Shown here one piece after another: positions 344 through 20,808 of a stretch of 44,878 bases of DNA (its first letter is position 1; the number at the start of each line of letters is the position of its first letter). A program made the position numbers and the translations under genes. This DNA is from Lachnospiraceae bacterium (lineage in GTDB: Bacteria > Bacillota > Clostridia > Lachnospirales > Lachnospiraceae): positions 1 to 44,878 of the forward strand of contig JAILLI010000048.1 in NCBI GenBank assembly GCA_024693225.1, given 5' to 3'. A model generated the notes under the pieces. It did no database searches and was not told the DNA's origin. It saw nothing but the letters and a program-made list of their open reading frames with translations.

Positions 344-2263
344 ATGACTGATAAGATCGGAAAACGACAAATCCATACAAGTGGCTGCGGATTTCCCATG
401 GGCGCCGTAAAGATGGCGGAGGGAGTGCAGTTTTCAGTAGCTCTTCCTTACAGAAATACCCTCGAATTATTCATATTTAACGATCAGGGAAAGGTCATCG
501 ACCATGTCAATATGCCCGATCATGCGCTTGCATCGGGCGTGTGTTCATGTCTGATACATGGTAAGCTTCCTGACGGTTTTTCATATGCTTATGAAGCAGA
601 CGGCATAAAGGTTTGCGATCCTTTCATGAAGAATTCAACGGCTGCAAGGAAGTTCGGTGATGCCGAGGGGACACTTGACAATGCAAAGCTTTATGAGGCG
701 GAGTTTGACTGGGGAGATGACAGGCCCCTGTGCCTGCCTTACAACAGCATCATTGCCTATCAGGTCCATGTCAGGGGCTTTACAAACCATACATCATCAA
801 GAGTAAGACATAAGGGGAAGTTTTCGGGACTTACGGAAAAGATCCCATATCTTATGGATCTTGGTGTCAACCAGGTCGTTCTGATGCCTTCGTATGAATT
901 TGATGAGATCATACGTCCCCAAAAGGCTTTATCCATGGACAGGATAGATTACAAAGCCCTTCCGGGGAAAAAGGAAGAGTACAAGATCAACTTCTGGGGC
1001 TTTACCGAAGGCTGTTATTACATGCCCAAGGCATCTTACTCGGACGGCGATCCGGTCAGGGAGTTCAAGACCATGGTAAAAGACCTTCATGCTGCAGGCA
1101 TTGAGGTCATCATGCGGATGTATTTCCCGGATACGGTAAACCGGGCTTATATCCCCGATATATTGAAATTCTGGGCTTATGAATACCATGTGGACGGGTT
1201 CTTTGTAATGGGGGACGATCTGCCCATGGATATCATCGCCGCCGATATGTTCCTTCGGGACCGGAAGATTTACAATATCTTCTTTGACAAGGATGCGGTG
1301 ACAAGGCGCAAGTACGGCTATAATCATAACATGGCCTTTGTCAATCCCGATTTCATGAACGTCTGCCGTAAATACTTAAAGAGCGATGAAAACCAGCTGT
1401 CTGATTTTCTGTACAGACAGCGTCTCAATCCTGCAGACGTACACACGGTAAATTACATCACCGATTATTACGGTTTCACCCTTAAAGATCTTGTGACCTT
1501 TGACTATAAGCACAATGAGGACAATAAAGAGGACAACAGGGACGGGGAGAACTTCAACTACAGCTGGAACTGCGGAGTGGAGGGGGTATCCCGCAAAAGA
1601 TCGGTGATATCCTTAAGGATGAAGCAGATGAAGAATGCCCTGGTATTCCTCCTGCTGTCTCAGGGAGTTCCCATGATCTGCGCCGGGGACGAGTTTGCCA
1701 ATACGCAGATGGGAAACAACAACACCTATTGTCAGGACAATGAGATCGGCTGGGTGGTATGGAAGACCAGCAAACACTCGCAGGAGATCTATGACTTTAC
1801 AAAGATGCTCATAAGTCTTCGAAGGGAACATCCCATACTTCATCCGGAAAGGGAGTTTCGTCTTATGGATTATGCCTCATGCGGTTTTCCGGACCTGTCA
1901 TACCACGGGGACATGGCATGGAATCCCAGGTTTGAAAACCATCTCCGCCATATAGGGATCATGATATGCGGCAAATATGCAAGGCTGACAAGGATAAAGG
2001 AGGATGATTTCTTCTATATTGCATATAACATGCACTGGGAGGATCATACTTTCGCCCTTCCAAAGCTCCCGAAGGGACTGGCATGGACTGTCTGTTTTGC
2101 GACCTGTGAGAAGGGGGCGGCAGCAGTGATACATGATACCCTTAAGGAAAATGAAGGAAGCGTAACGGTGCCTGACCGCTGTATTTGTGTGCTCAGATCC
2201 GGGGAGCAGACAGATGATAAGAAAAGTGATCTCAAAGCGGATGATATCACGGATAAAATTTGA
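344..2263 (+). CDS. GlgX/isoamylase-family GH13 protein lacking catalytic residues (probable pseudoenzyme)
   Basis: The 639-residue protein has the layout of glycogen debranching enzymes: an N-terminal CBM48/isoamylase-type domain (about 14-130) and a GH13 barrel. Family hallmarks remain, such as HNEDNKEDNRDG (390-401), SWNCGVEG (407-414), AGDEF and CQDNEIGW. The four GH13 active-site regions are degenerate. Region I (DVVYNH) reads RMYFPD near 258-263. Region II (DGFRFD) reads DGFFVM, so the nucleophile Asp is Met289 and the conserved Arg is Phe287. The acid/base Glu aligns with Ile312. Region IV (TAHDG) reads TDYYG, so the His and transition-state Asp are Tyr375 and Tyr376. The reading frame is intact over its full length, so this is not simple decay. 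A sugar-binding or regulatory role in glycogen metabolism is inferred. The ATG at 344 agrees with where the family's N-terminal domain begins, although no ribosome site is visible. Confidence 0.85.
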   Translation: MTDKIGKRQIHTSGCGFPMGAVKMAEGVQFSVALPYRNTLELFIFNDQGKVIDHVNMPDHALASGVCSCLIHGKLPDGFSYAYEADGIKVCDPFMKNSTAARKFGDAEGTLDNAKLYEAEFDWGDDRPLCLPYNSIIAYQVHVRGFTNHTSSRVRHKGKFSGLTEKIPYLMDLGVNQVVLMPSYEFDEIIRPQKALSMDRIDYKALPGKKEEYKINFWGFTEGCYYMPKASYSDGDPVREFKTMVKDLHAAGIEVIMRMYFPDTVNRAYIPDILKFWAYEYHVDGFFVMGDDLPMDIIAADMFLRDRKIYNIFFDKDAVTRRKYGYNHNMAFVNPDFMNVCRKYLKSDENQLSDFLYRQRLNPADVHTVNYITDYYGFTLKDLVTFDYKHNEDNKEDNRDGENFNYSWNCGVEGVSRKRSVISLRMKQMKNALVFLLLSQGVPMICAGDEFANTQMGNNNTYCQDNEIGWVVWKTSKHSQEIYDFTKMLISLRREHPILHPEREFRLMDYASCGFPDLSYHGDMAWNPRFENHLRHIGIMICGKYARLTRIKEDDFFYIAYNMHWEDHTFALPKLPKGLAWTVCFATCEKGAAAVIHDTLKENEGSVTVPDRCICVLRSGEQTDDKKSDLKADDITDKI

Positions 2264-2309: not shown

Positions 2310-3314
2310 ATGATAGACGGTAAAAAAGTACTGTTCTCGGGCATGCAGGCCACGGGAAATCTGACATTGGGGAATTATCTGGGCGCCCTTAAGAACTGGG
2401 TAACCCTTTCGGATGAATATGAGTGCTTTTATTCGGTCGTGGACATGCATTCCATAACGGTAAGACAGGATAGCGCGGAGCTTAGGAGCCGGGCCAGAAA
2501 GCTCCTGACCCTTTATATAGCGGCAGGTCTTGATCCCGAAAAGAACTGTATATATTATCAGTCACATGTTTCGGGACATGCCGAACTGGCCTGGATACTG
2601 AACTGTTTTACGTACATGGGTGAACTGTCGCGCATGACACAGTTCAAGGACAAGTCCGCCAAGCATGCCGATAATATCAATGCAGGTCTTTTCACCTATC
2701 CGGTGCTTATGGCGGCAGATATACTCCTGTACCAGGCGGATGTTGTACCGGTCGGCATCGACCAGATGCAGCATCTGGAGCTTACAAGGGATATAGCCCA
2801 GCGTTTTAATGCCATATACGGTGATGTCTTCACGGTGCCCGAGCCTTATATAGGCAAAGTGGGGGCCAGGATAATGAGCCTGCAGGATCCGTCCAAAAAG
2901 ATGAGCAAATCGGATGAGAATCCCAATGCCTCTATTTATCTCATGGATGATCCGGATACCATAATGCGCAAGTTCAAGCGCGCTGTCACCGATTCTGTCG
3001 GAGCTGTACGGTATAACGAAGAGGAACAGCCCGGAATATGCAATCTCATCGATATTTACTGCGCCTGTACCGGAAAGAGCCGCGAGGAGACCGAAAAGGA
3101 ATTTGACGGAAAGGGTTACGGTGATTTCAAGACCGCAGTGGGAGAGAGTGTTGTAGAAAAGCTCCGCCCTCTTCAGGAGAAGATGGCAGAGCTTGAGAAA
3201 AACAAAGATTATATTGACAGCGTGATAAAGAATAATGCGGAGCGTGCGGCATATGTTTCAAACAAGACCCTCCGCAAGGTTCAGAAGAAGGTGGGTTTCC
3301 CTATTCGGCCTTGA
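2310..3314 (+). CDS. trpS: Tryptophanyl-tRNA synthetase
   Basis: This class I aminoacyl-tRNA synthetase charges tRNA-Trp in the cytoplasm. The 334-residue length is typical for bacterial TrpRS. The HIGH-type motif lies in TGNLTLGNYLGA (15-26) and the KMSKS motif is intact at 197-201. YQADVVPVGIDQMQHLEL is a family signature around the tryptophan pocket. An AGGA-rich site (AGGAAAAGAGGAT) precedes the ATG. The gene follows the GlgX-like gene after 46 bp, and no T-box leader fits in that gap. Its last 14 bases overlap the end of the convergent potD gene. Confidence 0.97.
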   Translation: MIDGKKVLFSGMQATGNLTLGNYLGALKNWVTLSDEYECFYSVVDMHSITVRQDSAELRSRARKLLTLYIAAGLDPEKNCIYYQSHVSGHAELAWILNCFTYMGELSRMTQFKDKSAKHADNINAGLFTYPVLMAADILLYQADVVPVGIDQMQHLELTRDIAQRFNAIYGDVFTVPEPYIGKVGARIMSLQDPSKKMSKSDENPNASIYLMDDPDTIMRKFKRAVTDSVGAVRYNEEEQPGICNLIDIYCACTGKSREETEKEFDGKGYGDFKTAVGESVVEKLRPLQEKMAELEKNKDYIDSVIKNNAERAAYVSNKTLRKVQKKVGFPIRP

Positions 3315-17177: not shown

Positions 17178-17208
17178 AGTAAAGTCGTGTATAGTGTGCA
17201 TACAGGCA

Positions 17209-17242
17209 CCGCCGCATACTATATGTTGGGGTTTTGCGGCGG
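17209..17242 (+). promoter_or_regulatory. GC-rich stem-loop in the DUF1015 leader
   Basis: CCGCCGCA (17209-17216) pairs perfectly with TGCGGCGG (17235-17242) around an 18-nt loop. It lies in the 5' leader and ends before the ribosome site (AGGGAGG). No T-tract follows, so it is more likely a stability or regulatory structure than a terminator. Confidence 0.5.
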
Positions 17243-17271
17243 CTGCTTATGATACAAGGGAGGAAGAAGGC

Positions 17272-18510
17272 ATGGCTACAGTCAGACCGTTTTGTGCAGT
17301 AAGACCCAGACAGGATATAGCATCGAGGGTTGCTGCCCTGCCTTATGATGTATATAACCGGGCGGAAGCGAAGGAGGAGACCCAAAGGGAGCCCCTGTCG
17401 TTTCTTTGTATTGACAGGGCCGAGACACAGCTGCCGGATGATATAGACACATATGATCCCAAGGTATATGAAAAGGCAAGGTCCCTTATGAGAAAGAGGA
17501 TAGATGACAACACTTTTGTTGCTGACAGGGATCCCTGCTATTACATATATGAGCTTGTAATGGATAAAAGGTCGCAGACCGGGATAGTAGGGTGCGCTTC
17601 CGTGGATGATTATCTTACGGGCGTCATCAAGAAGCATGAAAACACCCGAGCTGACAAGGAAGCTGACAGGATACGTCACGTTGACAGCTTAAGTGCCCAG
17701 ACCGGACCGATATTTCTTGCCTACAGGAGGCGGGAGGATATCGCCTCCGTTATAGAAAGGATCAAAAAGGAAAAGCCCATATATGATTTTGTATCACCCG
17801 ACGGTATAGGCCACAGGGTCTGGGCTATAAGACAGACGGCTGACACCGATGCCGTAAGCCGTGCTTTTTCGGACACTGACAGTATCTATATAGCCGACGG
17901 TCACCACAGATGCGCATCAGCCGTAAAGGTAGCTCTGATGAGAAGAGAGGCCCATCCCGACTATAGGGGGGATGAGGAGTTCAACTATTTCCTGTCGGTC
18001 CTCTTTGCGGATGATGAGCTTATGATCATGGATTATAACAGGGTCCTTAAGGATCTGAACGGGCTGTCTGTCGATGAAGTGATAAAGGCTCTCAAGAACC
18101 TGGGCACCCTCGATGAGACGGGAGAGGCGTACAGACCGGAGAAAAAGGGCTGTGTCGGTGTCTATATGGCAGGAAAATGGTACAGGCTTAAGTTTAATGA
18201 GGATCTGATACCGGATGATCCTGTGGAGGGGCTTGATGTTTCCGTTCTGCAGAACAATGTGCTGGACCCTGTGTTCGGGATAAAAGATCCCAAGACTGAT
18301 AAAAGGATCGATTTTGTCGGCGGGATAAGAGGACTGGGGGAGCTTGAAAGAAGAGTAGGAGCTGACTGCGCCATCGCCTTTTCCATGTACCCAACAAGTA
18401 TAGGGGAACTCTTTGCTGTGGCCGATGCGAACCTTCTCATGCCGCCCAAATCCACCTGGTTTGAACCTAAGCTTCGAAGCGGTCTCTTTATACATGAGAT
18501 TGAAGCCTGA
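17272..18510 (+). CDS. DUF1015 family protein
   Basis: A 412-residue protein of the DUF1015 family, seen from VRPFCAVRP near the start, ALPYDVYNRAEA and the central DGHHRCASA (209-217). The last motif resembles the conserved box of ParB/sulfiredoxin-fold proteins. Archaeal SerK, a free-serine kinase, belongs to that fold, and this gene lies just after serC-serA, so a role in serine phosphorylation is a reasonable inference. It is not shown here. The ATG at 17272 is chosen for its AGGGAGGAAG ribosome site; an upstream in-frame start lies inside the leader hairpin region. glgB follows closely. Confidence 0.85.
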   Translation: MATVRPFCAVRPRQDIASRVAALPYDVYNRAEAKEETQREPLSFLCIDRAETQLPDDIDTYDPKVYEKARSLMRKRIDDNTFVADRDPCYYIYELVMDKRSQTGIVGCASVDDYLTGVIKKHENTRADKEADRIRHVDSLSAQTGPIFLAYRRREDIASVIERIKKEKPIYDFVSPDGIGHRVWAIRQTADTDAVSRAFSDTDSIYIADGHHRCASAVKVALMRREAHPDYRGDEEFNYFLSVLFADDELMIMDYNRVLKDLNGLSVDEVIKALKNLGTLDETGEAYRPEKKGCVGVYMAGKWYRLKFNEDLIPDDPVEGLDVSVLQNNVLDPVFGIKDPKTDKRIDFVGGIRGLGELERRVGADCAIAFSMYPTSIGELFAVADANLLMPPKSTWFEPKLRSGLFIHEIEA

Positions 18511-18549
18511 AGGGTATGTCCCTGATACAGAATGATCCCGGAGAAGAAA

Positions 18550-20808
18550 ATGGACAAGAAACTTTACAAAATGATGGATTGGGCAAGAGTTGAGCAGATC
18601 GTGTATTCGGAGGAGGATGCCCCCTTCGGTTATCTTGGTGCTCACCATGTCGGAGGAGGCTGGATGATATCCTGCTTTATCCCCGATGCCGATAAATGCT
18701 CCGTTATACTGGCAGGCAAAGAATACAGGATGGACCGGATGGATGAGCAGGGCTTCTTTTCCGTCCTGATAAGGACCCTTTCCAAGTCCAGGATATCTTA
18801 CAGATTCAAGGTTACACGCGGCAGAAATACCGTCATAGAGGAGGATCCCTACAGGTTTAAGAATATCATCCCTGCATCAGTCTTAAGAGCCTTCGAGGCC
18901 GGCATCTGCTATGACATATACGAGTATCTCGGTGCGCATATAAGGAAGTCCGACGGGGTGTTGGGGGTCAACTTTGCCGTATGGGCACCCTCGGCAGTCA
19001 GGGTTTCGGTCGTCGGTGATTTTAACGACTGGGACGGGCGAAAGCATCAGATGCAAAGACGGGGAGATTCGGGAGTCTTCGAGATCTTTGTTCCGGGGGC
19101 CGGTATTGGCGATAACTACAAATTCGAACTTAAGCTCAAAGGGGGTATGGTGATCCTCAAGGCAGATCCCTACGGTTTTGGCGCCGAACTCCGTCCGGGG
19201 ACGGCATCAGTTGTCTGCGATATAAACTCCTTCAAATGGACCGATGAGGATTTCGTAAAGGACCGGGCTGCCTTTAATTCCAAAGACAGGCCCTTCCTGG
19301 TATATGAGTTATATCTGGGAAGCTTTTACAAGCCCGAGGACGGAAGGGAATTTGCAAATTACAGGGAGATAGCCGACAGGCTTATCTCATATGTAAAGGA
19401 AATGGGATATACCCATATAGAACTCATGCCGGTAATGGAGCATCCTTATGATGAATCCTGGGGATATCAGGTCATAGGCCTGTATGCTCCCACGTCGAGA
19501 TACGGAAGCTGCGAAGATTTCATGTATTTCATGGACAGGATGCATGATGCCGGGATCGGCGTCATACTGGACTGGGTACCGGCGCATTTTCCAAGGGATG
19601 TACAAGGCCTTGCAAATTTTGACGGTACATGTCTCTATGAACCTGAAGATCCGGCAAGGGCCGATCACCCCGACTGGGGGACCTTGTGTTTTAACTACGG
19701 AAGACCTCAGGTATCGAATTATCTGATAGCAAATGCCCTTTTCTGGATCAGGAAATATCATGCCGACGGTATAAGGATGGATGCTGTCGCTTCCATGCTC
19801 TATCATGACTACGGCAGGCAGGGCGGATACTGGGTACCCAACATCTATGGCGGAAATGAGAATCTTGAAGCTGTGGAGTTTTTGTGCCATCTTAATTCGA
19901 TCAACCGTAAGATGGAAACAGGGGCCCTTATGATAGCCGAGGAATCAACTGCCTGGCCCAAGGTAACGGGAGAACTTGATGATGACGGACTGGGCTTTGA
20001 CTACAAGTGGAATATGGGCTGGATGAACGATTTTCTGGGCTTTATCAGGCTAGATCCACTTTACAGGAGCGGCCACTACGGTGAACTGACATTTTCAATG
20101 ATCTACGCCTACAGCGAGAGATTTATCCTGGTCTTCTCACATGACGAGGTAGTTCACGGCAAGGCATCCCTTTTATCCAAGATGCCGGGGGACAGGGACA
20201 GACAGTTTGCAAACTTAAGAGCCAGCCTCGGATATATGTTCACGCATCCCGGCAAAAAGCTCCTCTTCATGGGACAGGATATAGGTGAGTGGGATGAATG
20301 GAGCGAAAAGAGGAGCGTCAGGTGGGATCTCCTCCAATATGAGGATCATATAAAGCTCAATTCCTATGTGAAGGCCCTTATAGGCCTGTATAAGGAAACT
20401 CCTGCTCTCTATGCCCTTGACAACTGCGTTGAGGGCTTTGAGTGGATCAACAATATTTCCGCAAATGAGACCATTATAGTATTTCTCCGTAAGGATGAGG
20501 AGGGTAATACAGTCCTTGTTGTACTGAACTTTGCGGATATAGACAGGCATGATTACAAGATAGGCCTGCCCTTCCCCGGAAAATACAAGGAGATATTCTC
20601 ATCGGATGATATTACCTTCGGAGGCAGGGGCCATAACAATCCTAGAGTGAAGCGGTCCAAAGATGATGAATGTGACGGCAGGCAGTACAGTATGAGGATC
20701 AATGTGCCGGCCCTGTCGGTATCGGTATTTACATGCACATATTATGAACCTGAAGAGCTTAAGTATTACCATGCTCCCGTAAAAAGGAAGAGAAAGCGCA
20801 GACGTTGA
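18550..20808 (+). CDS. glgB: 1,4-alpha-glucan branching enzyme
   Basis: Introduces alpha-1,6 branches into glycogen. The 752-residue protein has an N-terminal carbohydrate module (YLGAHHVGGGWMISCFIPDA), a CBM48 domain (about 130-230, with VVGDFNDWDG) and a GH13 barrel. All catalytic residues are intact: Asp411 in DGIRMDAV, Glu464 in IAEEST and Asp532 in SHDEVVHG, in contrast to the GlgX-like protein at 344-2263. The ATG at 18550 has GGAG six bases upstream; an ATG at 18532 has no site. The protein ends in an unusual basic tail, KRKRKRRR. The stop codon lies within the -35 box of the uppP promoter. Confidence 0.96.
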   Translation: MDKKLYKMMDWARVEQIVYSEEDAPFGYLGAHHVGGGWMISCFIPDADKCSVILAGKEYRMDRMDEQGFFSVLIRTLSKSRISYRFKVTRGRNTVIEEDPYRFKNIIPASVLRAFEAGICYDIYEYLGAHIRKSDGVLGVNFAVWAPSAVRVSVVGDFNDWDGRKHQMQRRGDSGVFEIFVPGAGIGDNYKFELKLKGGMVILKADPYGFGAELRPGTASVVCDINSFKWTDEDFVKDRAAFNSKDRPFLVYELYLGSFYKPEDGREFANYREIADRLISYVKEMGYTHIELMPVMEHPYDESWGYQVIGLYAPTSRYGSCEDFMYFMDRMHDAGIGVILDWVPAHFPRDVQGLANFDGTCLYEPEDPARADHPDWGTLCFNYGRPQVSNYLIANALFWIRKYHADGIRMDAVASMLYHDYGRQGGYWVPNIYGGNENLEAVEFLCHLNSINRKMETGALMIAEESTAWPKVTGELDDDGLGFDYKWNMGWMNDFLGFIRLDPLYRSGHYGELTFSMIYAYSERFILVFSHDEVVHGKASLLSKMPGDRDRQFANLRASLGYMFTHPGKKLLFMGQDIGEWDEWSEKRSVRWDLLQYEDHIKLNSYVKALIGLYKETPALYALDNCVEGFEWINNISANETIIVFLRKDEEGNTVLVVLNFADIDRHDYKIGLPFPGKYKEIFSSDDITFGGRGHNNPRVKRSKDDECDGRQYSMRINVPALSVSVFTCTYYEPEELKYYHAPVKRKRKRRR

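Follow-up and report, generated by a model that had tools for sequence, protein, structure and literature searches.

The window analysed here, a stretch of 44,878 nucleotides from a Lachnospiraceae bacterium, encodes a relative of the glycogen debranching enzyme GlgX, referred to below as pseudo-GlgX, that has lost its catalytic apparatus, belongs to a single clade under strong purifying selection and keeps the outer glucan contacts of GlgX. The gene co-occurs with and is chromosomally linked to glgB. On balance, we lean towards reading pseudo-GlgX as a noncatalytic, glucan-binding accessory or scaffold protein of glycogen synthesis and turnover that works alongside GlgB and is not an obligatory subunit of GlgX; glucan binding, a cytosolic location and action on glycogen are what we infer for it.

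A GlgX paralogue without the GH13 catalytic residues

The pseudo-GlgX ORF begins with ATG, has no internal stop (0) and is open over all 639 codons of the protein, so that the whole frame is kept, as the first-pass annotation of this DNA had stated. The nearest family is TIGR02100 (GlgX, NCBIfam; E = 1.6e-89), with a score of 300.8 bits that lies under the curated cut-off of 640.9. That cut-off is strict: three canonical Lachnospiraceae GlgX proteins score 633, 639 and 663, two of them just under it. The best Pfam match spans residues 143-185 and corresponds to a short part of the alpha-amylase domain, and an N-terminal CBM48 is recognised in 7 of 24 pseudo-GlgX members (E ≤ 0.01), with no match in the window's copy.

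Alignment with E. coli K-12 GlgX bears out the earlier claim that every GH13 catalytic carboxylate is replaced: the nucleophile D336 corresponds to M289, the acid/base E371 to I312 and the transition-state residue D443 to Y376, and the accompanying Arg and His (R334 and H442) to F287 and Y375. The placement of region III, which the annotation had considered least certain, is taken from an alignment of 197 sequences. The scaffold motifs NRDG (398-401), NYSWNCGVEG (405-414) and AGDEF (447-451) are kept, again as described. Each change in the original residue list was thus correct; the list itself was incomplete, omitting the loss of region I and a deletion in the β3-α3 loop (Table 1). All four GH13 catalytic motifs (4/4) are absent from the window's protein, and the loss of GH13 hydrolase catalysis is, judging from the sequence, as good as certain.

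Table 1. Features of the window, with positions in the 44,878-nucleotide stretch and residue numbers of pseudo-GlgX in parentheses.
Feature	Position	Strand	Details
pseudo-GlgX gene	344..2263	+	639 aa
Codon of kept W218	995..997	+	= S. venezuelae Trp222, -1 sugar contact (PMC9530166)
Lost GH13 region I	1115..1132	+	RMYFPD (258-263) for DIVLNH; GlgX alignment
β3-α3 loop deletion site	1133..1141	+	about 42 aa missing (3 aa left of 45)
Lost region II	1193..1222	+	DGFFVMGDDL (284-293); R to F287, nucleophile D to M289
Lost region III	1262..1288	+	RKIYNIFFD (307-315); acid/base E to I312
Lost region IV	1451..1486	+	NYITDYYGFTLK (370-381); H to Y375, D to Y376
Kept glucan-side loop	1511..1585	+	HNEDNKEDNRDG...NYSWNCGVEG (390-414), with E396 (= S. 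venezuelae Glu470)
Kept segment	1685..1741	+	GDEFANTQMGNNNTYCQDN (448-466), with N460 and Y462 (= S. venezuelae Asn534 and Tyr536)
trpS	2310..3314	+	46 bp downstream of pseudo-GlgX; TIGR00233 over cut-off
glgB	18532..20808	+	758 aa; same strand, about 16 kb downstream of pseudo-GlgX

Distribution, origin and selection

Among 150 genomes searched from the window's family, 131 gave matches, and the pseudo form is present in 125 of the 150, the window's own genome included. A match was fetched for every genome that could carry the gene, and the pseudo state was verified at all 125 carrier loci (125/125). Because the same state is found in every carrier, the catalytic loss in the window's gene is more than chance. 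Among the 25 genomes without the pseudo form, 19 had no match, two (G004 and G053) had canonical GlgX as their best match, one (G048) had two GlgX pieces at contig ends, and three (G030, G109 and G131) had weak matches alone (1e-7 to 1e-9), interpreted as other GH13 proteins. The window's genus is represented by 37 genomes, of which 35 gave a match; they include G159, with seemingly canonical matches alone.

All loci together yielded 176 pseudo sequences, 163 of them different, and the D/E/D triad occurs in none (0/176). Asp stands at the nucleophile place in one sequence, and 11 keep both of the other carboxylates without the nucleophile. At the β3-α3 place 3 aa are left in 170 sequences and 2 aa in the remaining 6. 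The frames are open, with 10 of the 176 sequences cut at contig ends.

In the samples searched, pseudo-GlgX is limited to Lachnospiraceae. Of 22 genomes from the window's family, 20 gave full-length, unbroken matches to the pseudo profile; among 174 genomes from other families of the same order, none (0/174) gave a full-length match. Draws from the class (291 genomes) and the phylum (299 genomes), at E ≤ 1e-110, contained no full-length match outside the same family; the sole other match in these draws (G634) starts at profile position 263, which is also where canonical GlgX matches start.

All 37 sampled pseudo sequences (37/37) form one clade with an SH-aLRT value of 100 in a 77-sequence tree obtained by a quick method without bootstrap. 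In the drawn tree this clade stands beside the clade with all 25 sampled canonical Lachnospiraceae GlgX proteins; the drawn topology held one faulty row (L206, a wrong ORF with a branch of 8.77), and the SH-aLRT tree was computed without it. As part of the reading that we favour on balance, a GlgX paralogue would have arisen once, early in Lachnospiraceae, and lost its cutting site, giving the noncatalytic form.

The dN/dS ratio is 0.074, 0.083 and 0.058 in the three closest pseudo-GlgX pairs, with a median of 0.11 over nine pairs with dS < 2; all six canonical GlgX pairs are saturated and give no ratio with which to compare these values. Over 136 genome pairs from the 17 genomes with both genes, GlgX is the better conserved of the two proteins in 135, with median identities of 40% for pseudo-GlgX and 60% for GlgX. 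Taken together, dN/dS and the identity comparison indicate that pseudo-GlgX is constrained as a protein, less so than the enzyme. The idea of a conserved pseudoenzyme, put forward in the first-pass annotation, is upheld by the recurrence of the state, the single clade, the open frames and dN/dS of about 0.06-0.08 in the closest pairs. The opposite pattern raised there, sister species with canonical residues and relaxed selection on this gene, was not found.

Retained glucan contacts and predicted fold

Residue conservation was scored on 125 representatives with less than 62% identity, a number that equals the genome count by coincidence. The catalytic columns drift among these representatives. 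The nucleophile column holds Asn in 31, Met in 21, and Leu and Ile in 15 each (commonest residue 25%); the acid/base column holds Glu in 21, Asp in 19 and Tyr in 13 (17%); and the transition-state column holds Asn in 54 and Asp in 34 (44%).

The available extract of a study of the S. venezuelae GlgX-acarbose complex (PMC9530166) lists Trp222, Tyr224, His271, Asp342, Glu378, Trp380 and His449 as holding the -1 sugar and Arg212, Glu470, Asn534 and Tyr536 as holding other sugars. We mapped these contacts, Arg212 apart, to pseudo-GlgX with E. coli GlgX as the intermediate, from offsets and motifs. Several are kept: W218 is Trp in all 125 representatives (125/125), and the Tyr224 place is Tyr in 106 and Phe in 19 of 125. 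E396 is present in 121 of the 123 representatives with a residue there, and the nearby N391 in 123 of 123. N460 is found in 122 of 122, and the place of Y462 is occupied by Tyr in 113 and Trp in 9 of 122. Conservation as a family feature of pseudo-GlgX does not extend to the places of His271, the triad, Trp380 or His449. E396 is notable since, of 21 canonical sequences in a set that includes E. coli GlgX, 17 carry Trp at this position and four carry Glu.

In total, 75 columns of pseudo-GlgX are fixed to 90% or more. Conservation in both pseudo and active proteins is seen in 65 columns, several retained contacts among them, and the retained glucan contacts may instead be structural. A further 10 columns, by the cut used, are conserved in the pseudo clade alone; no new acidic pair stands out among these.

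The structural model of pseudo-GlgX (13 sequences; pLDDT 67, pTM 0.73) contains the strands of the eight-stranded barrel and a beta-rich N-terminus. The conserved loops 376-416 and 448-472 have pLDDT values below 50, and the geometry of the groove is therefore not visible in the model. The best PDB matches in a Foldseek search are rice ISA1 (from the ISA1-ISA2 complex), ISA1 dimers and Chlamydomonas ISA1, and the top matches also include S. venezuelae GlgX and TreX. GlgX/TreX (TIGR02100, GH13_11) is the closest paralogue, sharing the fold and the loop 7 and loop 8 motifs, whereas pseudo-GlgX lacks the triad and the β3-α3 loop and falls well short of the TIGR02100 cut-off (300.8 vs 640.9).

Glycogen genes, neighbourhood and possible role

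An accessory glucan-binding role fits best because the outer contacts are fixed, the triad drifts, the gene is tied to GlgB and it is independent of GlgX. With the cutting site lost and a likely sugar-binding surface kept, pseudo-GlgX would probably hold or shape glycogen, not cut it. It most likely binds alpha-glucan chains, and it would act with the branching enzyme GlgB as an accessory or scaffold in glycogen metabolism; the glycogen-binding or regulatory role suggested in the first-pass annotation is plausible and has indirect support.

Presence of glycogen enzymes was called at strict thresholds (GlgX 1e-90, PulA 1e-120, GDE_C 1e-20, GlgB 1e-120). GlgA is over cut-off in 146 and GlgB in 144 of the 150 family genomes; being near universal, GlgA is uninformative as a co-occurring gene. 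The pseudo gene is missing from all six GlgB-negative genomes (6/150; Fisher p = 1.2e-5, uncorrected for relatedness), a test that rests on 6 genomes of which 2 are 67% complete, and from all four (4/4) in the high-quality subset (p = 5e-4). It is also missing from 19 GlgB-positive genomes. One genome with neither GlgB nor the pseudo gene, G053, has canonical GlgX. This genome and three others (G073, G075 and G089) are at least 93% complete and have GlgA with no GlgB at 1e-120; they possibly make unbranched glucan.

The GlgB of the window is intact, in line with the first-pass description, with D417/E470/D538 aligning with E. coli GlgB D405/E458/D526. Directly upstream of it, at 17194-18510, lies a gene for a DUF1015 protein (PF06245). 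At the thresholds used, the genome from which the window comes (85% complete, 6.8% contaminated) lacks GlgX, PulA and GDE_C. Its GlgB genes number three, the one in the window and two others; of these two and a pair of GlgA genes (G000 C106, C181, C63, C111), some may be foreign given the contamination.

At least 18 of the 125 carriers have the pseudo gene and glgB on a shared contig no more than 150 kb apart, in all cases on the same strand (G000, G003, G011, G017, G022, G028, G039, G044, G086, G094, G110, G112, G117, G119, G121, G127, G133 and G134). The distance is within 45 kb in at least 15 carriers and within 13 kb in at least 8. Set against a rough model of uniform placement (1.9 copies, 3 Mb), the at least 15 pairs within 45 kb compare with 3.6 expected on the same strand (p = 5e-6); if strand is ignored, the excess is weaker (15 vs 7.1 expected, p = 0.007). 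At least six further pairs share a contig at greater distance (G005, G035, G046, G085, G102 and G138), with opposite strands in G085. Ten carrier regions that we viewed contain both genes in eight cases, in several arrangements, and two regions end before glgB. In G117 (L231), 3 bp separate the end of the pseudo gene from the start of the glgB ORF.

A bolder proposal, which we hold only tentatively, is that Lachnospiraceae independently evolved their own equivalent of plant ISA2, in the form of a dead isoamylase that would bind nascent glycogen and, with branching enzyme, set the architecture of the particle. If so, nearly half of the carriers would set glycogen shape without GlgX, PulA or GDE_C. 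Plant ISA2 is described in extracts of two papers as a noncatalytic isoamylase paralogue in which at least four of five conserved residues have varied (PMC12510319), with catalytic residues lost in every ISA2 examined, and as old and under selection (PMC12510319, PMC12892837); it raises ISA1 activity in the rice complex (PMC12892837) and affects soluble and insoluble glucan in maize (PMC12510319). Like the ISA2 of plants and green algae, pseudo-GlgX is a noncatalytic GH13_11 paralogue under selection in a glucan-storing lineage. It differs in that it is found, among the bacterial samples, in Lachnospiraceae alone, beside bacterial GlgX in a tree built without ISA2 sequences, and in that it lacks the β3-α3 loop and its genome is often without GlgX. 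Scored with the pseudo profile, ISA1, TreX and GlgX reach 310-428 bits, as against 209-232 bits for ISA2, and pseudo-GlgX probably arose independently of plant ISA2. GlgD, a paralogue of GlgC, belongs to a different enzyme family and step and is a parallel only. The likeness is that it serves as a regulatory subunit within the bacterial glycogen pathway (extract of PMC10395257).

The usual neighbours of the pseudo gene are housekeeping genes, DUF5662 or TraX, not glg genes. Across 162 loci, DUF5662 (PF18907) and TraX are the commonest close downstream neighbours: 46 have DUF5662 no more than 400 bp downstream (e.g., L228 and L234), always on the same strand and with a median gap of 5 bp, and TraX is close downstream in 28, on the same strand in 27. 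Upstream, UvrD is on the same strand in 63 loci and within 400 bp in 14. In two genomes (L025:1414-3840 and L151:587-2968) an O6-methylguanine-DNA methyltransferase is fused to the C-terminus of pseudo-GlgX. Such arrangements would suit a regulator or scaffold recruited off glycogen, for example with DUF5662 or DNA-repair genes, in which glucan binding is gone. We consider this rather unlikely: the neighbours vary by lineage (DUF5662, TraX, TrpS, GlgB), so none is obligatory, the glucan-contact residues are fixed, and GlgB-negative genomes lack the gene in six cases of six. A literature search on the term DUF5662 found no paper. With the TrpS cluster no more than 400 bp from the pseudo gene in 18 of the 162 loci, trpS is a recurrent neighbour, probably without a functional link.

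An accessory subunit of an active debrancher, strictly ISA2-like in binding GlgX or PulA and tuning its activity, would match the fold and the kind of loss seen in ISA2. It would also match the presence of the pseudo gene in 42 of 45 GlgX-positive genomes and a single gene run in G126, where canonical glgX and an ABC-F ORF share 4 bp and the pseudo gene comes next, all on one strand. This is nevertheless improbable in view of how debranchers are distributed. At the thresholds used, GlgX is found in 45 of the 150 family genomes (1e-90), type I PulA in 36 and GDE_C in 27; the 125 carriers divide into 42 with GlgX and 83 without it. None of GlgX, PulA and GDE_C is found in 58 of the 125 carriers, a count that, like the other debrancher counts, covers GlgX, type I PulA and GDE_C and leaves GH57 and type II pullulanase outside. 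The high-quality subset (125 genomes) has 105 carriers, 35 with GlgX and 48 without any of the three. Statistically, the association between GlgX and the pseudo gene is weak (Fisher p = 0.03; 0.12 in the high-quality subset), and the case for GlgX as an obligatory partner is weakened. Over the whole family set, 76 of 150 genomes have none of GlgX, type I PulA and GDE_C, though GlgA and GlgB are nearly universal.

There is only a slim chance that pseudo-GlgX works as an enzyme through an active site that has moved or newly arisen, for instance as a transferase or phosphohydrolase acting on glucan. The polar residues H142, R144, E188, H390, E396, D449 and E450 are invariant or nearly so, and some GH13 alpha-amylases are active despite an aberrant triad: BmaN1, as described in an extract (PMC5347038), shares the GH13 barrel and has an altered triad. 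However, BmaN1 is active and changes the third residue alone, keeping two of three, the nucleophile and acid/base included, whereas pseudo-GlgX varies at all three, and the polar residues mark no new site because, E396 excepted, active GlgX conserves them as well. A decaying pseudogene or relaxed relic, for which one could cite the drifting catalytic places and the faster evolution relative to GlgX, is scarcely credible, being contradicted by recurrence in 125 of 150 genomes and dN/dS of 0.06-0.08 in close pairs, as well as by frames open apart from the 10 of 176 cut at contig ends and 75 columns at least 90% fixed.

Pseudo-GlgX would be a bacterial noncatalytic isoamylase family kept across an abundant gut family. 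It is easily mistaken for a debrancher; gene catalogues may name it as an enzyme that is no longer active as such, and glycogen models may credit Lachnospiraceae with a missing activity. The survey also exposes the 58 carriers in which GlgX, PulA and GDE_C are all lacking at the thresholds used. Why selection keeps a noncatalytic isoamylase is an open question in the plant field (PMC12510319, extract), on which pseudo-GlgX bears, in organisms often without GlgX. Among the matches listed in our literature search, made on open-licence PMC titles and the starts of abstracts, a noncatalytic bacterial GlgX is not described, which is no proof of absence; the extract of PMC4236520 likewise has nothing on one.

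Published gene lists are consistent with, and do not prove, the first-pass expectation that automatic annotation calls pseudo-GlgX a debranching enzyme. Extracts of the papers concerned give two glgX genes for B. hungatei MB2003, a 726-aa glgX1 with CBM48 and a 648-aa "glgX2 glycogen debranching enzyme" that lacks it (PMC5716241); glgX2 is listed as up by 3.27 log2 in pectin monoculture (PMC6344614, with locus tags that differ from those in PMC5716241). Membership of this glgX2, known here by description only, in the pseudo-GlgX group is a lead only. Blautia obeum is credited with two glgX homologues (PMC10395257, extract), one of which may be pseudo-GlgX.
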